A DNA stretch of 46,820 bases from Desulfurococcales archaeon (GTDB taxonomy: Archaea > Thermoproteota > Thermoprotei_A > Sulfolobales > Acidilobaceae). Below are positions 1 to 11,478 of this stretch, piece by piece. How positions within the stretch are numbered: position 1 is the first letter of the stretch; each line of letters begins with the position of its first letter. The position numbers were made by a program, and so were the translations under genes. The DNA lies in contig WAOT01000009.1 of the NCBI GenBank assembly GCA_015521115.1, positions 1 to 46,820 on the forward strand. Direction: 5' to 3'. Under the pieces are notes generated by a model. It searched no databases, was not told where the DNA came from, and saw nothing but the letters and a program-made list of their open reading frames with translations.

Positions 1-837
1 GTTAATATTTTATTTATCAGGATATCGGGAGGTGGTTGCGGGGGTAACTGCCTTGCTGACTATTTTAGGAAGATTGCTTCATACATGGTCGGTTATATAT
101 CGGGGGTGCAGCAGAGTCAGAAAATTGATATTAAAGACTATTATCGTTATATAATCTTTCTATTTATGCTAGAGCTGAGATCGGAGTACGAGTATACAAC
201 TTACTTGATAGAATTGAAGTCGAGATGTCGTTATTTAAGGGGGTGTAGAGGCGATCTCTATGGCAGGGCTTATCGCCCGGTGATATTACTAACAACAGTG
301 TATCCCGTCCTAGAAATTGTGAGGGAGAACTTGAAGGTCTGCGGAGTGATCCCTGACCCGGTTATGTATACTTTGGCCTATGAGGTCGGGTCGATTGTAT
401 TGTTTTATAATGAGGCTAGCGACTATTTAGAGGGGCCTTCGAACATCGTTGAGGCCGGGCACGGTAGTGTAGAGGGCAGGAATTACTGGGTCGAGCAGTA
501 CCTTGCTAAGTTAACGATTCTAGTGTTTACAGTCATAGAAGCCGTTATCCTCCGCTTCAGTCGCATGATGTCTTTAACCGATGCGGAGAGGCTACACATA
601 ATTGTGTACATGTTAATAGACCATGTTATTACAGCCTCTGAGAGGGTCTCTTGTAGTCATATATGTGAGGCCTTCTGCTTCTTCGTGGAGGATAGTGATA
701 CGTCTTGCGGTAAGGAGGCAAGGCCTGTTAGTATGGTGGGTAGGGACATGTTGACGCTCTTACACGCACTAAAGAAAAGCGTCCTCATCCCTATTAAGTG
801 TGAATGTGAGTGCGAAAACCGCAGTTTTGGGCGGTGA
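1..837 (+). CDS. Unknown cysteine-rich protein, 5' end possibly outside the window
   Basis: The frame is open from the first base of the window, so the gene may begin upstream; the first ATG is at 85 (250 residues) and the stop is TGA at 835-837. I do not recognise a family. The C-terminal third is rich in Cys (for example CSHICEAFC, DTSC, IKCECECEN), and there are hydrophobic stretches such as YRYIIFLFMLEL and LAKLTILVFTVIEAVIL that look like buried helices or one or two membrane segments. Codons and bases are visibly more A+T-rich than in the rest of the window (many tta, ata, gtt), which suggests transfer or weak expression. No good Shine-Dalgarno sequence precedes ATG 85. The gene stands alone, convergent with the fatty-acid gene to its right. 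Confidence 0.55.
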   Translation, partial: VNILFIRISGGGCGGNCLADYFRKIASYMVGYISGVQQSQKIDIKDYYRYIIFLFMLELRSEYEYTTYLIELKSRCRYLRGCRGDLYGRAYRPVILLTTVYPVLEIVRENLKVCGVIPDPVMYTLAYEVGSIVLFYNEASDYLEGPSNIVEAGHGSVEGRNYWVEQYLAKLTILVFTVIEAVILRFSRMMSLTDAERLHIIVYMLIDHVITASERVSCSHICEAFCFFVEDSDTSCGKEARPVSMVGRDMLTLLHALKKSVLIPIKCECECENRSFGR

Positions 838-961
838 GAACTTCCTGTCTCTAACCGGGTATGAGGGCTCACCTCTGGATAATACTGGGTAGCACGAGGA
901 GGTGCTGTATGGTCTATGGCCCGGGAAAAAGGTGTTGAAATGTTTAGAAAACCCTATGTTT

Positions 962-2983
962 TTAGCGGCCTTTGAACTTGGGCTTTCTCTTCTCTAGGAA
1001 TGCTGTTACCCCTTCGATTACGTCTTCGGTGCTGAATAGTAGGCCGAAGAGGTGTGCTTCTAGTGCTAGGCCTGCCCATATGTTGGATTCTAGTCCGTAC
1101 TCGATTGCGTATTTGGCTGCCATTAGTGCTAGCGGTGGTTTCTCTGCTAGTTTGAGGGCTAGTGCTCTCGCCTCCTGCTCTAGCCTCTCGGGTGGTACTA
1201 CCTTCTCTACTAGTCCTAGTTTGTAGGCCTCTTCGGCGGGTATCATGTCTCCGGTGTAGATTAGGAGTTTAGCGTGTCCCCTTGGTATGAGCCTTGGTAG
1301 CCTCTGGGTTCCTCCTGCTCCTGGTATGAAGCCTAGGTTGATCTCGGGCTGTCCGAGCATTGTGCCCTCTGCCGCTATCCTTATGTCTGTGCTCATCGCT
1401 ATCTCTAGTCCTCCTCCTAGGACGTAGCCGTGGAGTGCTGCTATGATCGGCTTAGTGTAGAACTGCATCTTGAGCGTCAGCTCCTGGAAGCGCCTCGAGA
1501 ACTTTGCTATGTCTATTGGTGTTACGCCTGCGAATGCTGTGACGTCTGCTCCGGCGCTGAAGGCCCTGCCCTCACCCTTCAGTATTACTACCCTTACGTC
1601 CGGGTTGTCCTCTAGCTCGTCTAGCGTCTCGCCCAGCTCCTTTAGTAGCTCTGGGCTTAGGGCGTTGAGCTTCTTAGGCCTGTTGAGTATTACCCAGGCT
1701 ATCGGCTTCTCTATCCTCACTAGGATAGTCTTCTTCTTTATCTCCTCGACCTCTCCGTACTCGTAGAAGCCCTTGCCAGTCTTCCTGCCCAGTCTGCCCT
1801 CCTCTACCATCTTGAGGAGGAGCGGCTGGGGCTCCATCTCCTCTAGTCCCAGGTCTGTCTTGAGCTTGTTGAGGGCTTCCACGATCTTGTCTATACCGTA
1901 CTCGTCTGCGAACTCGAAGACGCCCTTAGGCCATCCCAGCCCCAGCTTGACGGCCTTGTCTATGTCCTCCTTGGTCGCGACGTCGTTCTCGAGGAGCCAT
2001 GCCGCCTCGTTCACTGCGGGGGCCAGTAGGAGTACTGGGTCTACCTTGCCAGCGAGCTCCTTGGGTATCTTAGGCCTCACATACTTGCCCGGCTCCGGGT
2101 AGGTGTAGAAGCCCTTGCCAGTCTTCATACCGTACTCCTTCTTCTCGAACTTCTCCTTTAGGAGCGGGCATGGTGTTATGTTGAAGCCCCTCTCCTTCAT
2201 GGCTGTGAAGACGTAGTAGAACACGTCTATACCGCTGTAGTCGCTCAGCTCGAACACGCCCATCGGGAGGCCTAGGATGTACTTTACGGTAGCGTCTACC
2301 TCCTCGATCGTCGCTAGGCCCTTGTGGACTATGTGGCATGCGGTGTTTATGAAGCGGCCGAGGATCCTGTTCACTATGAAGCCCGGGACGTCCTTCTTAA
2401 CCACAACAGGCTGCTTCCCGAACTTCTTTGCTAGCGCGACGGTCACCTCCACCGTCTCGTCACTAGTCTTCTCCCCCCTGATGATCTCGACTAGGGGCAT
2501 TAGGGGTGGCGGGTTGAAGAAGTGCATCCCGACGACATTCTCCGGCCTGTTGGTTGCAGCGGCGATCTCAGTTATTGGGAGGCTGCTAGTGTTTGTCGCC
2601 AGTATTGCGTGGGGTGGGGCGTGCTTGTCGGCGAAGGCGAAGAGCTGCTGCTTCAGGTCTATCCTCTCAATGATCGCCTCGATCATGAAGTCCGTCTCAG
2701 CTAGGATCTTGGCGAACTCCTCCGTGTAGCTACCGTCGGGGTTCAGGTTGACAACCGTGGTTATCCTTGACATTACACTGTCGACAGTCTCCCTAAGTAT
2801 CCCCTTCTCGTATAGCTTTGATAGGCTCCACTTGATCTTCTCTAGCGCCCTGTCGAGGATCTCCTGCTTGATGTCGACTAGGTACACCTTGTAGCCTGCC
2901 ATAGCGGCGACTTCAGCGATGCCGTGGCCCATAGTCCCGGCTCCTACTACGGTTATCGTCTTAATGTCCTCCACTTTCACCAT
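962..2983 (-). CDS. Bifunctional 3-hydroxyacyl-CoA dehydrogenase / enoyl-CoA hydratase
   Basis: This fusion protein hydrates a 2-enoyl-CoA (such as crotonyl-CoA) and oxidises the resulting (S)-3-hydroxyacyl-CoA with NAD. The N-terminal Rossmann domain has G14-A-G-T-M-G19. The dehydrogenase catalytic pair is visible as His in GMHFFNPP and Glu in LVEIIRG. Two dehydrogenase C-terminal domains follow, both ending in a KTGKGFY motif. The C-terminal crotonase domain (about residues 417-673) carries AFSAGADV and both catalytic Glu residues (GGGLEIAM and GQPEINLGFIPGAGG). The 673-residue dehydrogenase-then-hydratase order is typical of archaeal enzymes of the 4-hydroxybutyrate CO2-fixation cycles, and also serves fatty- and amino-acid breakdown; the sequence alone does not decide which. 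ATG start with GGGTGG upstream. Confidence 0.93.
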   Translation of the reverse strand: MVKVEDIKTITVVGAGTMGHGIAEVAAMAGYKVYLVDIKQEILDRALEKIKWSLSKLYEKGILRETVDSVMSRITTVVNLNPDGSYTEEFAKILAETDFMIEAIIERIDLKQQLFAFADKHAPPHAILATNTSSLPITEIAAATNRPENVVGMHFFNPPPLMPLVEIIRGEKTSDETVEVTVALAKKFGKQPVVVKKDVPGFIVNRILGRFINTACHIVHKGLATIEEVDATVKYILGLPMGVFELSDYSGIDVFYYVFTAMKERGFNITPCPLLKEKFEKKEYGMKTGKGFYTYPEPGKYVRPKIPKELAGKVDPVLLLAPAVNEAAWLLENDVATKEDIDKAVKLGLGWPKGVFEFADEYGIDKIVEALNKLKTDLGLEEMEPQPLLLKMVEEGRLGRKTGKGFYEYGEVEEIKKKTILVRIEKPIAWVILNRPKKLNALSPELLKELGETLDELEDNPDVRVVILKGEGRAFSAGADVTAFAGVTPIDIAKFSRRFQELTLKMQFYTKPIIAALHGYVLGGGLEIAMSTDIRIAAEGTMLGQPEINLGFIPGAGGTQRLPRLIPRGHAKLLIYTGDMIPAEEAYKLGLVEKVVPPERLEQEARALALKLAEKPPLALMAAKYAIEYGLESNIWAGLALEAHLFGLLFSTEDVIEGVTAFLEKRKPKFKGR

Positions 2984-3138
2984 ATCATACCACCCTTCCT
3001 ACTCATTCAGGGAGGGGCCCGGTGAGGACTCGGGGAGCCCCTCCCCTGGGGGAGCCCCCCGTGTATGTTAAGCGTGTCCGTGTTGGAGGATATAATCGTG
3101 TAAGTAATCAGGTGGACATAGCCGTGGGGAAGAGATAC

Positions 3139-3146
3139 CTTTTAAA
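3139..3146 (+). promoter_or_regulatory. TATA box for the small protein at 3187
   Basis: TTTTAAAC-type TATA box preceded by a purine/C run. Transcription would start near 3169, leaving a short leader with a GAGAGGAGG ribosome site in front of ATG 3187. This spacing argues against an upstream GTG/ATG at about 3022 as the real start. Confidence 0.55.
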
Positions 3147-3186
3147 CCCGCCCGGCATCCCCCGCTTGGTGGTAGGTGAGAGGAGG

Positions 3187-3459
3187 ATGTCAGAGTATAT
3201 CGACAAGGTGAAGGATATAATCAGGCCCGAGGTCAAGAAGCACAACCTAAAGCTGCTACCCCGTGGGAAGAACAGTTTCAGTATCCTAAGGAACGGCCAG
3301 ATATTCATGACTGTCAGGGACACGGGCGACAACGTAGAGATATCGTTCGGCGGCAAGAAGTACATGTATGACAAGTACTACACCAAGCCAGAGCACCTGA
3401 GCCAGGCGATCATAAACCTCCTAGAGGCGCAGCTAGCGCCAAAGAAAGAGGAGGAGTAA
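3187..3459 (+). CDS. Small conserved-looking basic/acidic protein (90 aa), unknown function
   Basis: A 90-residue soluble protein starting MSEYIDKVKDIIRP, with a beta-rich middle (SFSILRNGQIFMTV, VEISFGGKKYMYD) and a Lys/Glu tail (APKKEEE). The start is set by a strong ribosome site (GGTGAGAGGAGG) directly before ATG 3187 and by a TATA box at 3139. The frame stays open upstream to 3022, but that part runs through the promoter and reads as low-complexity Gly/Pro. It is divergent from the hydratase/dehydrogenase gene. I recognise no domain. Confidence 0.7.
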   Translation: MSEYIDKVKDIIRPEVKKHNLKLLPRGKNSFSILRNGQIFMTVRDTGDNVEISFGGKKYMYDKYYTKPEHLSQAIINLLEAQLAPKKEEE

Positions 3460-3530
3460 CCCTCCTCTACTACACCCCCGGTAGAACCCTCTAGAATTTT
3501 CCTAGCACCCATATAGGGGGCCGCAATACT

Positions 3531-3540
3531 AAATTATATC
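3531..3540 (+). promoter_or_regulatory. TATA box for the flippase-like gene
   Basis: AAATTATATC lies about 40 bases before the TTG start at 3576, giving an expected start site near 3560. A T-rich stretch (aatttt) at about 3495-3500 could end the preceding transcript. Confidence 0.5.
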
Positions 3541-3575
3541 CTAACAGTCCTCTACCTCGTCCAGGTCGTTAAGAG

Positions 3576-4598
3576 TTGGATGGGGGAGGGCGTCATGGGA
3601 GGGCTCTCAGGAGGCTATTGATAGGGCTACTCCTCCTACTCCTCCTCTCTACAGGCGCCCTCATGCACATTAGCGGTGGCCCCAGGGAGCTCATACGGGT
3701 CGCCCGCGGGGTCGACCCAGTAGTCCTCGCGGCGTCCTTCTTCCTACTCTCTCTAGCTGAGATCGTGAAGGCCTGGAGGCTTAGTCTTATAGGAGAGAGG
3801 CTAGGAGTGAAGATCCCGCTCACCGTGAGTACGATCGCAAGGTTCTCGGGGAGGATGGTTGGAGTCCTCACGCCGGCTTATAGCGGGGCGACACCGACGC
3901 GTAGCCTGATAGTCTCCGCATACACAGGCCGTCCACCGGGTGTGACCTTTGGTATAGCTACGATGGAGAGCCTCATGGACACGCTCATAAGCGTGACGGT
4001 TGTAATCGTAATGGCCATACCATACCTTCCAGAGTCGTGGTTAATGCTCCTCGTAGCACTATGTATCGGTGGGAGCTGGATAGGGGGGCTCCTGTGGGCC
4101 CGTAGCGACAGTTTTGAGAGGGTCATAAACCGCATTAAGATGCCCGAGAACTTCCGCTGCTACATACTCGGCCAGAGGAAGCTATTCCTAGAGAGCCTGA
4201 GGGAGGCGAGCAGGCTGGGGATCCTCTCAGTATCCGTACTTGTAACTCTTGGGGCCCACATCGTTGAGGCGATGGGCCTCCTAGTAGTGCTCAAGAGCGG
4301 GCTCTACTATATTGCGAGCCCCCTCCTCGTCCTGAGGGCGTTCCTCCTAATGGAGGCGACATACGTGCTCAGCATGAGCATAACTCCCGGAGGAGCACTA
4401 TTCTTCGAGTACGGGCTCGCAGGCCTAATGGATCCGAGGAGCCTCCTCACATGGAGGGTCGTCTACCTAGCCTTCAGCCTACTCCCAGGCCTTGTGATAG
4501 CGTTAACGGTCAGCAGGGTGAGGAGATATATCAGTGAGGCTCTAGAGCAGGAGATCAAGGGCTGCGAAGAGGGGGGAGAGGGCAGTGAGAGTATATGA
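3576..4598 (+). CDS. Lysylphosphatidylglycerol-synthase TM-like (UPF0104) integral membrane protein
   Basis: A 340-residue polytopic membrane protein with about eight hydrophobic segments. The first (LLIGLLLLLLLSTGALMHI) follows a short basic N-terminus. Family-like features are SLAEIVKAWRLSLIGERLG, RFSGRMVGVLTPAYSGATPTRS and SITPGGALFFEYGLA, which match the conserved loops of the flippase-like UPF0104/LPG-synthase transmembrane family. Members translocate or modify lipids or polyprenyl-linked sugars; the substrate here is unknown. The start is TTG 3576; TTG 3618 with CAGGAGG just before it is an alternative. The 3' end overlaps the TatD-like gene by 14 bases, so the two are probably co-translated. 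Confidence 0.72.
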   Translation: MDGGGRHGRALRRLLIGLLLLLLLSTGALMHISGGPRELIRVARGVDPVVLAASFFLLSLAEIVKAWRLSLIGERLGVKIPLTVSTIARFSGRMVGVLTPAYSGATPTRSLIVSAYTGRPPGVTFGIATMESLMDTLISVTVVIVMAIPYLPESWLMLLVALCIGGSWIGGLLWARSDSFERVINRIKMPENFRCYILGQRKLFLESLREASRLGILSVSVLVTLGAHIVEAMGLLVVLKSGLYYIASPLLVLRAFLLMEATYVLSMSITPGGALFFEYGLAGLMDPRSLLTWRVVYLAFSLLPGLVIALTVSRVRRYISEALEQEIKGCEEGGEGSESI

Positions 4599-5325
4599 CA
4601 TGCACTGCCACGCCCACGAGTTCCCCCTAGAAGAGCTGTCCCAGATAGTGGAGGAGTTCCCCGGGGATCTCGTGGTCGTAGCCGTCTCAGAGGATCTCGA
4701 GAGCCTGTACAAGACACTAGAATACGCCCAGACACTCAACGGGAACCTGATACCATGCGCCGGCCTCCACCCCTGGAGTATAGGCGAGGTCACGCTCCAA
4801 GAGGCGTACGAGATCGCGCGGGCAGCGGAACGCCTGGGGCTGAACTGTATAGGCGAGGTCGGGCTGGACAGGAAGTTCGTAGACCCGACCACGTACAAAG
4901 TCCAGGAGGAGGTCTTCAGGCTGTTCCTTAGAACCGCTAGGGAGCTAGACGCATACGTCACAATACACAGCCCAAAGGCGTGGGCCAGGGCCCTGACGAT
5001 GCTGGTGGAGGAAGGGGTGGAGAAGGCGATGTTCCACTGGTACACGGGCCCATTAAACCTTATAGACGAGATCATAGCCTCCGGCTACTACATAAGCATA
5101 AACCCGGCGATAAAGATACAGGAAAAACATAGGAGGGTAGCCGAGCACACCCCCCTGAGGGGCATGGTTCTAGAGAGTGACGGCCCCTACAACTATAGGG
5201 GGCTGAGGCTAAACCCACTCATGATCCCAGAGGCAGCCGAGTTCGTCGCCAGACTGAAAGGGGTGGCCAGGGAGGAGGTGCTGGAGGCTGCGGGACAGAA
5301 CTCGGCGAGGCTCCTAGGCCTCTAA
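4585..5325 (+). CDS. TatD-family metal-dependent hydrolase
   Basis: An amidohydrolase-fold protein of 246 residues. Metal-binding features of the TatD family are in order: His-X-His in YDMHCHAHEF (H7 and H9), Glu in CIGEVGLDRKF, His in YVTIHSPKAW, His in AMFHWYTGP and the terminal Asp in LESDGPYN. TatD enzymes are 3'-5' exonucleases/DNases or related phosphoesterases; the archaeal substrate is not settled. GTG start at 4585, overlapping the upstream membrane protein gene. It converges with the acidic unknown gene, with only eight bases between stops. Confidence 0.85.
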   Translation: MRVYDMHCHAHEFPLEELSQIVEEFPGDLVVVAVSEDLESLYKTLEYAQTLNGNLIPCAGLHPWSIGEVTLQEAYEIARAAERLGLNCIGEVGLDRKFVDPTTYKVQEEVFRLFLRTARELDAYVTIHSPKAWARALTMLVEEGVEKAMFHWYTGPLNLIDEIIASGYYISINPAIKIQEKHRRVAEHTPLRGMVLESDGPYNYRGLRLNPLMIPEAAEFVARLKGVAREEVLEAAGQNSARLLGL

Positions 5326-5333
5326 CCAGGGCT

Positions 5334-5879
5334 TCACATGTAGAGGAGGCGGGCCGACTGGGGCTTCCATAGGCCCTCCTCTTCCTCCTCGACCTCTTCC
5401 TCCTCAAGCATCTCCTGGAGCCTGTAGTAGACCCTGTAGGCTATGCTCTGCGCCTCTATAATTGAGGCCCTCAGCCTGACCTCTAACGGGCTAGCGGGCT
5501 CCACAACGGGGTCCTCAGTCTCCCTCCCACACTTCGCCACAGCAGCGACCAGAGGGCTGGGGGGCACGAGTAGGAGTACTGTGAGGGGGAAGCCGAGCCT
5601 GGCGCCGAAGGCTGAACTGACAATGGAGAGTATGGAGCTCGGTATCTCCTCGATGAGCTTGCCCACCGGAACACCCTCACCCGCAGACTCAACGAGGTCG
5701 AGCTCATACGAGGCCCAGGAGTCGATAAGCTCCGGGAGCAGGTCGACGACAGTGGCTACAAGCTCGGGGTTCTCCGACATTATCCTCCTGATCTCCTGGC
5801 ACGCCTTAGCGGCGGCCTCCTCAGCGCTCTTACCAAACCTCTCAGCCAGGCTCCTCCCAGCCTCACCCTCTGAAGCCAT
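5334..5879 (-). CDS. Unknown acidic protein (181 aa)
   Basis: No family recognised. The N-terminal half is helical and Ala/Glu-rich (SLAERFGKSAEEAAAKACQE). The middle has an Ile/Val-rich stretch (LGFPLTVLLLVPPSPLVAAVAKCG) that could be one membrane-associated or buried helix. The end is a strongly acidic helix (LQEMLEEEEVEEEEEG). ATG start at 5879. Upstream on this strand there is a TATA-like ATTTTATGC around 5914-5923 and a CCCTATAGGG palindrome at 5899-5908, near the expected transcription start. Confidence 0.65.
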   Translation of the reverse strand: MASEGEAGRSLAERFGKSAEEAAAKACQEIRRIMSENPELVATVVDLLPELIDSWASYELDLVESAGEGVPVGKLIEEIPSSILSIVSSAFGARLGFPLTVLLLVPPSPLVAAVAKCGRETEDPVVEPASPLEVRLRASIIEAQSIAYRVYYRLQEMLEEEEVEEEEEGLWKPQSARLLYM

Positions 5880-5971
5880 GTATGAGCACCCGGAAGCCCC
5901 CTATAGGGTGCCCCGCATAAAATAGGATATTCAAACACTCCCCTGAGGGCCGGTAATACCGGGTTCATAGA

Positions 5972-7657
5972 GTGGGAGACCGAATAGCGTGGGCATTGGA
6001 AATTAGGCTTTGTCATATAATGTTATGCGGGGCTTCCCGGGGTGCAGGCGGGTTGTCATATTTAGAGGGGGATGATGAGACACTCGAGGCAATACCTTCA
6101 TGGAGCGGCCTCCTCCTAGCACTAGCCGCTAGGGGTGTGGAGCTAGACTCGGGCGAGCTCCTAGTCTTCGACGACAATTGGAACCCGAGGCCTCAGAGTG
6201 AGCCGCTCATAGGGAGCGTGTGGGCCGGGGAGGTTTTCATAGATACTGGGAGCAGGAGTGCTAGGAGTCTTAGCGGGGTGGAGGAGGGCTTCATACTGAA
6301 GACGAGCATCCTACTCCGCTACTGGTCTGGCAGCACCCTTGAGGAGAGGATCCTCTACCCCCTCAGCAGCGGGGCCCCCGGGTTCCTCCTAGTGAGGGGG
6401 GACGATAGGAAGAGGCAGGCGAGCCTCTACGTGGCGGAGCTCGGGATGGTTCTAAGCATATTGAAGGGGGGCCTCCCTGTAGGGTTGGACGGGCCACTAC
6501 TAGTAGTGAGGCATGGGAGCCTCCTCCAGAGCCTGGGGACATACTTCAACAAGGTCTTCGACCTGGAGAGGAGGAATGCCGAGGCCGTCCTAGGATATGT
6601 CGGGCTTGACAAGGCGACGGTTAAGGACATAGTGGACGCTTCGACGATAAGGAGGGAGTTGACAGAGCGTGTTAACCCGGGGTTAATGGCGGCCCACATA
6701 CTGGACATGATCAAGAAGATCTCCGCGAGAGAGGGCCACACAGTCCTAGGCATAACCGAGGACGTCTCCGTCGGGAGGCACCTCCTCGTAACGACTCTGG
6801 CAAGGATAGCCCAGTCGTCGGTCTCTAGCCAGGGTTCACCGTCGTTCACGATATACAATCATATAGACAGGGCGATAGCAGACCTGGACGCCTCGTGGAG
6901 GGAGGCCTGCCTATCGGACTTTGACGTGGAGAACCCCAGGACAATAGTGTATGAGGGCTCGAGGTACCTCGAAGCGATACTCCAGGAGCTTGCCGGCGCG
7001 AAGGATCGCTACGCGGCGGCCAAGACCCTAGCTGACCTCTCCGCGGAGGAGGTCGTTAGGAGGATATATGAGAGGCAGATCCTCAAGTACTTCAACCTCT
7101 CCAGCGACAGCCACCTGATAATGCTCTACAACTACCTCTTCAAGCCCCCAGGTAAGGAATATAGGGCTAGCATAGAGGTCGACAAGAGCTGGCTCTACAG
7201 GGAGAGGATCATTAAGAGCTTCCGGGAGAGGATAATAAGTGACGACAGGGAATACCACCTGGACGAGGATGATATAGCGGGGATGGTCGATGGGGTAAGC
7301 CTCCGGTACATCCTACCAGAGGCAGCGCCAAGCTGCCCACAGCTAGCCGTGGAGGCGAGGAGGCTTGGTATTGATAGGAGAGTCCTCGCAGACCTCATCA
7401 GGGTCATACCGCCACTGAGGGTGGAGTACTTGAGGGGCGACCCTAAGCTCGTCAAGGCGCTGAACCACGTCTACACTCAGGCCCTCGTAACAGCATACGG
7501 AGTACCTCCACAGCTCCTCGTTGTTGACGCGAGGAGCAGGGTGCACGAGTGGGAGTATAGCGCGCTCGCAAGCCTCCTGGAGGCGTTGAGTAGGAGGGTT
7601 ACGCCATACAGCACATTCATTAGAGACTTTAGCGTCAGGAGGCTCCACCTACTCTAG
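5972..7657 (+). CDS. NurA-like nuclease domain protein, enlarged (561 aa)
   Basis: Probably the nuclease partner of the HerA-like ATPase encoded next. NurA-like signatures in order: FIDTGSRS (first acidic metal ligand), AELGMVLSI with GLDGPLLVV (the DG-L motif), VLGITEDVSVGRHL (the central GI-K/D-like strand), then PPLRVEYLRG and GVPPQLLVVDARSRVHEWEYSA near the C-terminus. NurA proteins are usually near 330-350 residues; here about 150-200 extra residues sit between the GITEDV and LRVEY blocks. The start is uncertain: GTG 5972, ATG 6020 or TTG 6053. Thirteen bases separate it from the ATPase gene, so they form one operon. The assignment rests on motif reading and gene order. Confidence 0.68.
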   Translation: MGDRIAWALEIRLCHIMLCGASRGAGGLSYLEGDDETLEAIPSWSGLLLALAARGVELDSGELLVFDDNWNPRPQSEPLIGSVWAGEVFIDTGSRSARSLSGVEEGFILKTSILLRYWSGSTLEERILYPLSSGAPGFLLVRGDDRKRQASLYVAELGMVLSILKGGLPVGLDGPLLVVRHGSLLQSLGTYFNKVFDLERRNAEAVLGYVGLDKATVKDIVDASTIRRELTERVNPGLMAAHILDMIKKISAREGHTVLGITEDVSVGRHLLVTTLARIAQSSVSSQGSPSFTIYNHIDRAIADLDASWREACLSDFDVENPRTIVYEGSRYLEAILQELAGAKDRYAAAKTLADLSAEEVVRRIYERQILKYFNLSSDSHLIMLYNYLFKPPGKEYRASIEVDKSWLYRERIIKSFRERIISDDREYHLDEDDIAGMVDGVSLRYILPEAAPSCPQLAVEARRLGIDRRVLADLIRVIPPLRVEYLRGDPKLVKALNHVYTQALVTAYGVPPQLLVVDARSRVHEWEYSALASLLEALSRRVTPYSTFIRDFSVRRLHLL

Positions 7658-7670
7658 GGGGTGTAATGTT

Positions 7671-9827
7671 TTGTCGGAAAGGGCTGAGATGACCGGTTTT
7701 ACCACGAGCATTAAAGAGTACACGCGGGTCGAGGGCATAATCCTCAGGCCCGCAGAGGCAATAGTGAAGTATGGTACACTAGTCCTGATAAAGGATAACA
7801 CTCAGGGCAAGGAGTACCTCGCAATGATAACTAACGTCCACGAGGAGACCCCGCACCCCGCCCTCGACGTAGAGAGGCTGAGGAAACTCTACCAGACCAT
7901 AACGGAGGCAAGCCTCCAAGACGCCTACCGGGTGCTACAGGAGCTGCTGAGCCCGACGCAGAACCTGATAAAATGGAGTAGTATCATGAGCGTGGAGCTC
8001 CGAGTCCTGGGGGAGATAAAGTCTACCGGGAGGGGGGAGAGGCTTGACACCTATGAGCGCCCTCCCAGGCCGTTCTCGAGCATATCCGAGCCCGAGCCGG
8101 GGAGGCTGGAGAGGATAATCCACTCCAGCCTAGGGCCAGACTATAAGAGGACTGGGATATACATTGGTAGGCTGAGCCTCCTCGAGACCGTAAGGATATA
8201 CATGAACGCCTCAAGACTAAACACGCACCTAAGCATACTCGCCCAGACCGGGGGCGGTAAGACGGAGACCGTGAAGAGGCTCGTCTACGAGATCACCAGG
8301 AGGCGCCACCACATAGGGAAGCCCCTAGGAGGAGTGGTGGTGTTCGACATAGCAGGGGAGTACACAGGGTACCCCTACATACCGCCAGACAGCGTGCCCC
8401 TACTCGACGCAGTCCTCAACCCAAGGGACTACGAGGGGACAGAGCACATCCCCGACCCGGTCTACACCCCTGAGGCCGTGACCGTGGTCGTCCCCTACGA
8501 GCTGACCAGGACAGGGGGTAGGGAGCAGGAGAAGCTCCTCCTAGAAGGCCTCAGATCCCTCGCATGCCAGCTCTCAGCGAGGCTGGGCCGGGCTGTCGAT
8601 GTCCTAGCCTTCCTAACATGGGAGAGGAGGTATGCGAGGGTGGACGCATCGAACGGAGGCCGCTGCGACCTCTCAGGGGACAGGAGGCTGAGATATGACG
8701 AGGCTTACAATATACTCCTCTCCAGCCCCTTCCTAGTTGTGGGCCTACCACTGCCCGGGTTTATGGACATAGATACCATGGTGGAGCTGAGCGGCACGAG
8801 GAGCGAGTACTTCCCCATTATTGTGGCCGACATAGCCGGAACCCTAGACCTATACCACGGAACCGACGTGTACGGCATCTCCCTCCTCCTAGCCCTCATA
8901 AGCGAGAACCCCACACAGCTTGGAGCCCTCCTCTCAACCCCTAAGGAGCCCGGTACAGCTAGGATACTAGCAGTATACGATAAGAGGTGTGCCACAAACG
9001 ACTGGGGAGACCCTGACCCGAAGAAGGACGGGGTTAGGGTCTCGAGGCAGCTGTTCTACTCGTTCCTGAGGTATCTGGCCTGGATAGCGTATAAGTGGGA
9101 GGTGGCAGACCCCTCAAAGGACAGTGAGACTCGGGCCCTCTGCAAGCTCCTATCAGACCATCAGGCAAGGTCTAAGCTAGAGCTTCTCCTAAGGGATCTC
9201 CGGTGGATCACCGGTATATCGAGGGAGTACTCAGCCCAGGTTGTGGCGGGTGTCAGGAGGGCTCTGAAGAAGATAGACACTATGACCAGCGACGTGGTCG
9301 ACACTATACTCTTCGACAGGCTTATGGACAGGCTTATGAAAGGGTTCACCATAATCCACCTGGCACCCCCCAGCACGGGGAACGTCGACCAGCTACTAGG
9401 CCTCGTAGTGAAGAGGCTCTTCTACAGGCACGTCGGCCACTACACGCCTGAGAGGCTCACAGTCCTCGTAGTAGAGGAGGCCCACAACCTCGCACCAGCG
9501 GGGGAGGATAAGGCGAGCAAGAGGGCCCTCCTAAGGGTCGCACGGGAGGGTAGAAAGTGGGGTCTAAGCCTATGGCTGGTCACCCAGAGGCCCAGCTTCG
9601 TGGCCTCAGACCTGCTGAGCCAGACAGCGACGAGCATACTACTCCGCACAACCAACCCCGAAGACCTCTCAACTATTAAGAGGAGCGTTGAGAGCGCCGC
9701 GGCAGAGATAGTGGACAGGCTGCCAGAGCTGGAGCCTAGCAGGGGCGAGGCGCTACTCACAGGACTAGCGGCACCTGAGAGGAGGATCCCCCTACTCATA
9801 CTAGTCGAGAAGCTCAGCAGATCCTAA
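7671..9827 (+). CDS. HerA-like bipolar DNA helicase/translocase ATPase, enlarged (718 aa)
   Basis: HerA/FtsK-type hexameric ATPase that, with NurA, resects or pumps DNA. An N-terminal beta-rich (HAS-like) region (EGIILRPAEAIVKYGTLVLI) is followed by Walker A AQTGGGKTE with Lys197, Walker B LVVEEAHN with Glu602/603, then the HerA-type sensor/arginine region (WLVTQRP, SILLRTTNPEDL) and the GEALLTG C-terminal motif. About 400 residues separate Walker A and B, more than in standard ~500-residue HerA, so the ATPase core has an insertion. TTG start at 7671, or ATG 7689; GGGGGTG lies just upstream. No mre11 or rad50 lies alongside. Confidence 0.87.
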   Translation: MSERAEMTGFTTSIKEYTRVEGIILRPAEAIVKYGTLVLIKDNTQGKEYLAMITNVHEETPHPALDVERLRKLYQTITEASLQDAYRVLQELLSPTQNLIKWSSIMSVELRVLGEIKSTGRGERLDTYERPPRPFSSISEPEPGRLERIIHSSLGPDYKRTGIYIGRLSLLETVRIYMNASRLNTHLSILAQTGGGKTETVKRLVYEITRRRHHIGKPLGGVVVFDIAGEYTGYPYIPPDSVPLLDAVLNPRDYEGTEHIPDPVYTPEAVTVVVPYELTRTGGREQEKLLLEGLRSLACQLSARLGRAVDVLAFLTWERRYARVDASNGGRCDLSGDRRLRYDEAYNILLSSPFLVVGLPLPGFMDIDTMVELSGTRSEYFPIIVADIAGTLDLYHGTDVYGISLLLALISENPTQLGALLSTPKEPGTARILAVYDKRCATNDWGDPDPKKDGVRVSRQLFYSFLRYLAWIAYKWEVADPSKDSETRALCKLLSDHQARSKLELLLRDLRWITGISREYSAQVVAGVRRALKKIDTMTSDVVDTILFDRLMDRLMKGFTIIHLAPPSTGNVDQLLGLVVKRLFYRHVGHYTPERLTVLVVEEAHNLAPAGEDKASKRALLRVAREGRKWGLSLWLVTQRPSFVASDLLSQTATSILLRTTNPEDLSTIKRSVESAAAEIVDRLPELEPSRGEALLTGLAAPERRIPLLILVEKLSRS

Positions 9828-9836
9828 CACCACCCA

Positions 9837-9845
9837 CTATATACC
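9837..9845 (+). promoter_or_regulatory. TATA box before small membrane protein
   Basis: CTATATACC about 50 bases upstream of GTG 9889, right after the HerA-like gene stop; it would separate the small gene from the nurA-herA unit. Confidence 0.45.
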
Positions 9846-9888
9846 CCGGGAGCAGGCCACCGTGAGGCTGTAGGGTTGAGGTGCCGAG

Positions 9889-10152
9889 GTGGCCACTGTG
9901 GGCATTATAGACCTGCTACGCTACACGCTAGCGGCCCTGGTCACACTAGTCTATGCAGTATACATGGCCTCAACGGTGTACCACGGAGGGAGGGCTCTGA
10001 GCGCAGTACTTAGGAGGAGGGAGACCGCTGAGTACTCGAGGAAGACCCTAACGGGCGCCATTATTCTCGGGGCTATCCTGACGGCCGCGTGGGCTGTTCT
10101 CGTCATAATCCTCCTATCCCCCGAGCTCGGCCTCCCACTTGGTGGTGGCTGA
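9889..10152 (+). CDS. Small two-helix membrane protein (87 aa)
   Basis: Two clear transmembrane helices (about residues 9-29, LLRYTLAALVTLVYAVYMAS, and 54-77, LTGAIILGAILTAAWAVLVI) are joined by a basic loop (LRRRETAEYSRK) that should face the cytoplasm. GTG start with GAGGTGCCGAG upstream. The last 39 bases overlap the 3' end of the convergent gene on the other strand. Function unknown. Confidence 0.65.
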   Translation: MATVGIIDLLRYTLAALVTLVYAVYMASTVYHGGRALSAVLRRRETAEYSRKTLTGAIILGAILTAAWAVLVIILLSPELGLPLGGG

Positions 10153-10635
10153 GGGGCTCGCCAGGGAGAGGAGGATCTCGCGTAGCCTCTCCCTGTTCCT
10201 CCTACTCCTATAGCTCGGGAGGCTCACCCTCGGAGGCCCAGCCGATATAACTGGGGGGCTCCCAATGATGTGTGCAGCCTTGTCGAGGGCCTCCCGATAC
10301 GCTTTCACGTTTACATAGTACACTATGCTCCTGTAACTGGTTAGGAGCCCCTTGAGATCCTCTACAACAGACCTCAGGAGGATCTCCCGCCTCCAGGGCT
10401 CCCTCCTATAGTAGAGGTCGGTTGTCGGCCTGATATCGCAGTGCCTGTAAGCCCCCTCCTCCCCCCAGGGGACTATGCCCGGCTTACAACTGTCTATCGC
10501 CGCCATATCGACAGCCCCGGCCTCGACTAGGTCGCCAACGGTTGAGAGCACCACCCTCCAGTTACTGCAGAGGCTATAGTCCCCGAGCCGGACGCAGGGG
10601 TTGCACGGGAGTACTAGGAGAACCTTCGAGACCAA
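10114..10635 (-). CDS. DUF5591-like protein, possible accessory half of a TGT-like enzyme
   Basis: A 173-residue Cys-rich protein (LPCNPCVRLGDYSLCSNW, DSCKPGIVPWGEE, YRHCDI). The Cys-containing first strand and the GIVPWGEE...Y..CDI block resemble the 'PC.....S' and 'GLVPRELE.YP..YD' blocks of the DUF5591 domain found in archaeosine tRNA-guanine transglycosylase and ArcS. TTG start at 10635, seven bases after the stop of the TGT-like gene, with GGGTG in front. In archaeal TGT the equivalent domain is fused to the catalytic barrel; here it would be a separate protein. The domain assignment is from a few motifs only. Confidence 0.5.
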   Translation of the reverse strand: MVSKVLLVLPCNPCVRLGDYSLCSNWRVVLSTVGDLVEAGAVDMAAIDSCKPGIVPWGEEGAYRHCDIRPTTDLYYRREPWRREILLRSVVEDLKGLLTSYRSIVYYVNVKAYREALDKAAHIIGSPPVISAGPPRVSLPSYRSRRNRERLREILLSLASPSATTKWEAELGG

Positions 10636-10642
10636 CCCCGGT

Positions 10643-11425
10643 TCACCCTGCTGATGCGGCTTCAGCCTTCGCCAGGTACGCGGTTATCGCCTTATAGCTC
10701 GCCTCCTCAGGGGTGTGGGCCGCGTATACTGTCCGCCTCCTGAATGTGATCTCGGCTAGCCACCCGCTACTGTCAACACTATAGACACTCTCCAGTAGCC
10801 CCCTCCTCCTAAGCCCCCTGATGAGGCGTACACCTATGCCGAAGAGGTGGAGGACAATGTCTAGGCCCATGGAGCGGGACTCCCTTAAGACGGACGAGAC
10901 GAGCCTTGAGAGGAACGCTATCCTCCTCCTCGGCCCGTCCAACCCCCCGACGCCCACGAGGCGGGCACCCGATCTCATGGGCGCCCTGTCTAATAGGCCC
11001 AACTCCCACTCGGCCCGAAGCGAAGCCAGGTAGCCCTCCACAGTCTCCCCCTGCAGTACCGGTATGAACTCCCCCGGATGTAGCTGGGTGAACCTGACGC
11101 TCCTCTCAATGGTGAGCCCCGGATCGCCGGGGACGTCGGGGGCCACGACGAGATCCCAGGGGCCCTCCACAGCCCTCGCAGCGTAGTCCTCGAGGGGCAC
11201 CTCCATGCCGAGCCTCATGAGGTGGTAGGCACCACTATCAAGCATCACCTCCCCAAGAGCCCCATGCTCTCTAAGGAGGAGGAGCCTCCTATAGCTCGAG
11301 GGCTTCCAGGTCAGAGTAGAGTAGCTGACCAGCACGTCAACAGGCCCCCTCTCCCCTGCGGCCCTCAAAAGGGCGTTAACCTTAGCCATTGAGACATCGG
11401 GTAATACTATGAATACCCTCACCAT
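10643..11425 (-). CDS. tRNA-guanine transglycosylase-like / DpdA-like base-exchange enzyme
   Basis: A 260-residue TIM-barrel-type protein with TGT-superfamily landmarks: VMLDSGAYHLM (the DSG general-acid block), VVAPDVPGD, FIPVLQGETVEGYL (the 'vvQG' strand), LVGVGGLDGPRRR (the GG base-binding loop), LHLFGIG and SVDSSGWL, where the second Asp would be the nucleophile. The Zn-binding C-X-C-X2-C and the C-terminal PUA domain of canonical TGT are absent. This spacing and the 'S.DSSGW' ending are characteristic of DpdA proteins that insert 7-deazaguanines into DNA. ATG start, with GGGGG and a TATA box (GGTATAAAGG, 11469-11478) upstream. Substrate (tRNA or DNA) unknown. Confidence 0.72.
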   Translation of the reverse strand: MVRVFIVLPDVSMAKVNALLRAAGERGPVDVLVSYSTLTWKPSSYRRLLLLREHGALGEVMLDSGAYHLMRLGMEVPLEDYAARAVEGPWDLVVAPDVPGDPGLTIERSVRFTQLHPGEFIPVLQGETVEGYLASLRAEWELGLLDRAPMRSGARLVGVGGLDGPRRRIAFLSRLVSSVLRESRSMGLDIVLHLFGIGVRLIRGLRRRGLLESVYSVDSSGWLAEITFRRRTVYAAHTPEEASYKAITAYLAKAEAASAG

Positions 11426-11468: not shown

Positions 11469-11478
11469 GGTATAAAGG
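11469..11478 (-). promoter_or_regulatory. TATA box of the TGT-like operon
   Basis: On the minus strand this reads CCTTTATACC; the expected start near 11446 gives a leader of about 20 bases ahead of ATG 11425. Confidence 0.55.

Follow-up and report, generated by a model that had tools for sequence, protein, structure and literature searches.

A zinc-less TGT/DpdA-like gene paired with an ArcS-type DUF5591 gene in Acidilobaceae: a candidate nucleic acid modification system apart from archaeosine

Two short adjacent genes of a Desulfurococcales archaeon (contig C8 of a genome of 1.73 Mb, 99.9% complete, with relatives in public records that are Acidilobaceae/Desulfurococcales MAGs), here called A and B, raise the question of whether a TGT-type enzyme works beside the tRNA archaeosine pathway in this organism, and on which nucleic acid it would act. 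DpdA, a TGT paralogue, inserts preQ0 into DNA and is paired with DpdC in the Dpd system, and DNA that contains 7-deazaguanines has been described for phages and bacterial Dpd clusters. The window analyzed is the whole stretch of 46,820 nucleotides that holds both genes, and the features that matter are:

5972..7657, + strand: c3, a 561-aa protein of no recognised family, which sits where NurA would be upstream of HerA; candidate fourth component
7671..9827, + strand: c2, a HerA-like ATPase (DUF87) of 718 aa, convergent with A/B; candidate third component
10114..10635, - strand: gene B, a DUF5591 (ArcS-type) fold protein of 173 aa, start TTG
10643..11425, - strand: gene A, a zinc-less TGT/DpdA-like barrel of 260 aa, start ATG
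11470..11476, - strand: possible archaeal TATA box (box A) TTTATAC, read directly from the letters some 45 nt before the start codon of A

The two ORFs of 260 and 173 aa, the gap of 7 bases between them and the motifs quoted in the initial annotation are all present where it had placed them. A and B are real genes under purifying selection and not chance ORFs, with dN/dS of approximately 0.07-0.22 and frames intact in all complete copies. A scan of genome contigs with a single sequence returned nothing, and the scan with a profile returned 15 loci. Relatives of A (42-55% identity, 15 genomes) and of B (41-64% identity, 15 genomes) each occur in 15 of the 48 family genomes and occur together in 13 (Fisher p = 5e-8, ancestry not corrected), and this co-occurrence in 13/15 supports the functional pair that had been proposed. 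In a few genomes one of the two is missing: G028 has A alone, and G079 and G085 have B alone. Both gene orders, A-B and B-A, are seen, depending on the genus, and in G081 both genes are there, yet unlinked.

Among the genomes searched, the pair is confined to one family of hot-vent archaea. In the 229 class genomes searched, A gave weak matches outside the family to other TGT-like genes and nothing else, and the matches of B in 398 phylum genomes were limited to family members. A viral origin was considered and rejected: no relatives turned up in viral contigs, and tblastn gave only weak matches to mycobacteriophage DpdA-like proteins, with none for B. The flanking genes are ordinary, i.e., tRNA-Gln, D-aminoacyl-tRNA deacylase, NUDIX, alanyl-tRNA synthetase, and TatD.

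Gene A has the residues that mark the TGT superfamily, the two catalytic Asp and the base-pocket Asp, Gln and GGL (D63, D218, D97, Q125, G160-L162). Its putative active site comprises D63, D97, Q125, G158/G160-L162, H193, and D218, with roles that we assume can be carried over from the Zymomonas and Pyrococcus TGTs. In alignment with the TgtA of the same genome, D63, D97, Q125, G160, H193, G196, and D218 coincide, and the catalytic and pocket positions are invariant in 13/13 family copies. Structure prediction, which the initial annotation had suggested as a check, gave for A a TIM barrel of alternating strands and helices (AlphaFold, pLDDT 94.8) with TGT-like matches among viral folds, and for B a DUF5591 fold. 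The zinc site, the N-terminal sheet and the C-terminal domains including PUA are missing, and the sequence of A stops right after the barrel; the description of A as a TGT-type barrel devoid of the zinc site and PUA thus holds, with an intact active site.

Profile comparison of A gave 98.7% for DpdA-like proteins and 97.6% for TgtA. The best named matches of the model in a viral library were phage queuine tRNA-ribosyltransferases, with a protein of Vibrio phage nt-1 in fifth place, while the top 50 matches in the PDB were generic TIM barrels with no TGT among them, which calls for caution, and the A profile found no TGT in PDB sequences. A did not match TIGR00432, which the genome's own TgtA matches at 489.5 bits, above the curated cut-off; it scored 12.6 bits against Pfam PF23859 (DpdA), under the curated cut-off of 27, and reached only E = 0.0014 against phrog_1279. 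In a tree, with 100/100 support, A joins other zinc-less orphans and stands apart from both the TgtA and the DpdA-like rows; the placement is provisional, as the branches are long. The zinc-less barrel and the modelled fold, nearest to phage DpdAs, support the view that A is probably closer to DpdA than to tRNA TGT, in line with the resemblance to the zinc-less DpdA family that had been pointed out.

The resemblance of B to DUF5591, already suspected from its letters, was borne out by both profile and fold. The B profile aligns with ArcS-type DUF5591 at a probability of 93-96.4% over 152-162 columns (hhalign, P = 5e-9), and the only match of its model (pLDDT 83) in the PDB below E = 0.001, also the top one, was AF0587 (2q07), which itself matches the DUF5591 profile at 2e-10. 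B did not match Pfam PF17884, and its profile gave 0% with the DUF6884 part of a TGT-like fusion protein on contig C37 of the same genome. The ArcS signature of the literature, PC-x3-KPY-x2-S-x2-H, is carried by the genome's own ArcS-type protein and is replaced in B by PCN-x5-GDY-x2-C/G-x2-W, so that PC and Y are retained and K, P, S and H are changed. Since these signature residues are gone, the chemistry of B may be lost or different. C11, C50, C66, K51, and D67 of B are invariant. Another two cysteines, C14 and C23, are jointly present in 7/11 relatives and jointly absent in 4/11, and they perhaps form a disulphide.

The initial annotation had also read the pair as a split TGT. B matches the DUF5591 of ArcS at 95% and the C-terminal part of TgtA at 0.1%, therefore A and B are not the two halves of one TGT, and the lineage of A is apart from TgtA in the tree. 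The search for a canonical tgtA, which had been recommended, found a full, separate TgtA in the genome; with this TgtA and the modelled TGT barrel, neither of the outcomes named in the initial annotation as refuting it came about. Elsewhere in the genome, the gene for an ArcS-type DUF5591 protein that stands alone and a radical SAM gene of RaSEA-like type lie within 2 kb of each other. At this site (L222, G000:C2, 6259-9035) the radical SAM gene is approximately 1.3 kb from the DUF5591 gene, and there is no ArcS TGT-like domain. The remark that no archaeosine genes are nearby is thus correct for the neighbourhood in the window, while the genome carries such genes in other places. The separate TgtA, stand-alone ArcS domain and RaSEA-like gene account for archaeosine in tRNA, therefore A/B are not the genome's archaeosine enzymes. 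A role of A/B as its archaeosine synthase was ruled out on the same grounds, together with the finding that their presence follows neither that of DUF5591 (p = 0.34) nor that of QueC (p = 0.76). Neither QueC above cut-off nor a QueF-like gene was found in the genome.

The neighbouring c2 and c3, directly downstream of the pair, raise the question of a link to a DNA motor. Profile comparison of c3 with NurA found no similarity, and the identification of c3 as NurA was dropped. c3 occurs in 18/48 family genomes, therefore the c2/c3 module is accessory; its presence tracks that of A/B (p = 3e-6), and among near-complete genomes c3 accompanied A/B in 7/9 versus 0/16 (p = 7e-5), ancestry being corrected for in neither test. 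In four genera A/B lie no more than about 3 kb from c2/c3 in convergent, co-directional or divergent arrangements. A/B are not linked to HerA in G009, G010, G012, G013, and G028, and the idea that the HerA module is an obligatory partner was not upheld. In G022, B and c3 are separated by a CARF-like gene.

Comparison with known systems shows which parts of A/B are familiar. A shares with ArcTGT (TgtA) the catalytic barrel and active-site residues and differs from it in the missing zinc site, N-terminal sheet and C-terminal domains and in its separate lineage. As in the Dpd system, a small zinc-less TGT barrel whose active-site positions are the same stands beside a potential tailoring protein for the inserted base; however, B is DUF5591-like instead of DpdC, A falls below the Pfam DpdA cut-off, and dpdB and dpdD-K are not beside A/B. 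PADLOC gave no Dpd match for A, B, c2 or c3, Pfam revealed none of dpdB-dpdK among the flanking proteins searched, and no preQ0 or dpd restriction genes adjoin A/B. With the ArcS DUF5591 domain that works with RaSEA, B has in common its fold and an end-to-end profile alignment, whereas its signature residues are replaced and the genome has its true ArcS-type gene and its RaSEA-like gene at another place. Vibrio phage nt-1 was reported to have DpdA2 + ArcS and modified dG in its DNA (PMC6884629). The two-part logic of a TGT-like and an ArcS-type protein is the same here, and one of the nearest folds to A is that of the nt-1 protein, but A/B are cellular, B has lost the ArcS signature and preQ0 synthesis genes do not accompany the pair. 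BREX-related capture (BRC) systems combine a HerA/FtsK translocase and a TGT homologue in one locus, and their published description names no DUF5591 partner (PMC12839542). The A/B locus resembles them in that a TGT homologue and a HerA-type translocase share it; PglZ, DUF6079 and DUF4007 were not found among the flanking proteins by Pfam, where c3 and some flankers have no family and a very divergent member could escape. A/B extend a known theme, represented by DpdA+DpdC, DpdA2+ArcS, and TGT+HerA in BRC.

We tentatively favor, at slightly less than an even chance, the reading that A is a DpdA-like base-exchange enzyme and B its ArcS-like tailoring partner, with DNA a likelier acceptor than RNA. 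There is good support for a predicted base exchange by A, in which the carboxylate nucleophile D218 would displace guanine from the nucleic acid with D63 as the acid/base, while the incoming 7-deazaguanine would be held by D97, Q125 and the GGL loop. Because the genome has no QueC, preQ0 for A would have to be salvaged, and the incoming base is most likely preQ0 acquired from the surroundings. A tailoring or recognition role of B is plausible; B would act after or with A and most likely target the 7-substituent (nitrile) of the newly placed base; alternatively, it would supply the recognition that A does not have. DNA is more likely than tRNA as the acceptor because A has no RNA-binding parts and resembles phage DpdA, and because HerA/NurA-type genes are nearby; the neighboring HerA-like module may recognize or use the mark.

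RNA could also be the substrate of A/B, i.e., a second tRNA position, for which G+13 of Thermoplasma tRNA-Leu is a precedent, rRNA or another RNA, and B could then be a tailoring or RNA-binding subunit. Classically, tRNA is the substrate of both the ArcS/DUF5591 and the TGT families, the pair lies among chromosomal housekeeping genes such as tRNA-Gln, D-aminoacyl-tRNA deacylase and alanyl-tRNA synthetase, and several genera have no A/B-HerA linkage. We nevertheless consider an RNA substrate rather unlikely, as A is missing zinc and the PUA/C-terminal RNA-binding parts, its nearest folds are phage DpdAs, the patchy spread in one family and the HerA/NurA association would be odd for a housekeeping RNA modification, and the genome already has TgtA, ArcS-type and RaSEA-like genes. 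If the substrate is RNA, A/B would still add a TGT-type modification system to that of archaeosine.

B may not be an enzyme at all. The inactive paralogue subunit QTRT2 of the eukaryotic TGT is a non-catalytic partner, as B would be if it were a structural or recognition subunit and A alone catalyzed the exchange, with plain preQ0 (or a salvaged base) as the product. The replacement of KPY-x2-S-x2-H of ArcS by GDY-x2-C/G-x2-W fits such a role, as does an A so small that nucleic acid binding needs a partner. However, PC and Tyr are kept, the invariant cysteines together with K51 and D67 are typical of an active site, and ArcS-like and TGT-like genes are paired elsewhere, with the full motif in locus L079 and a partial one in L217, which makes a purely structural B improbable, more so than an RNA substrate. 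That A/B are a decaying remnant of an archaeosine enzyme, as the initial annotation had allowed, would explain the domains missing relative to ArcTGT and is extremely improbable in view of the purifying selection, the intact frames in complete copies, the invariant catalytic residues and the separate tree lineage.

Returning to the base-exchange enzyme with a tailoring partner, similar gene combinations occur in other loci. A different family within the same order has, at L079 (G214, 4923-7853), a stand-alone DUF5591 gene with the full ArcS motif, a DpdA-like gene of 300 aa and NurA in a row on the same strand, and in another part of the phylum (L217, G342, 3-7853) a one-strand row reads TGT-like, 255 aa, DUF5591 with a partial ArcS motif, HerA, 1154 aa. 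In the same genome as A/B (L081, G000:C37, 7251-12648), the TGT-like protein fused to DUF6884 is divergent from NurA and HerA, and relatives of its TGT-like part, 47-49% identical, occur in the same NurA-HerA neighborhood in G182 (L215) and G183 (L216). G466 combines a TGT with a PCNA-like protein, an AAA protein and HerA. The proximity of 4/8 TGT-like subfamilies to HerA/NurA would arise by chance with P of about 5e-5 to 7e-4, a rough post hoc estimate with an assumed background rate. We hypothesize, more tentatively than for the enzymatic reading itself, that A and B could install a possibly new 7-deazaguanine as a chromosomal archaeal DNA-marking system coupled to the HerA-type motor and c3. 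It would count among several independent TGT/DUF5591/HerA-NurA combinations of Thermoproteota. If true, base-exchange DNA modification would reach hyperthermophilic archaea as a cellular module apart from the tRNA pathway, and the question of which group a DUF5591 enzyme with an altered motif attaches would become testable.

Several other loci were noted on the way. The genome's third non-TgtA TGT-like protein (L075, G000:C39, 8203-9243) has 346 aa and no Pfam match, with a relative in G012 (L076). L084 and L085 (G011, G021) each hold an apparent fusion of approximately 495 aa between a RaSEA-like radical SAM protein and an ArcS-type DUF5591 domain. A virus-like stretch (L219, G440, 3353-11032) carries QueC/QueD/QueE-looking genes, a TGT-like gene and the gene for a 569-aa DUF6884 protein.
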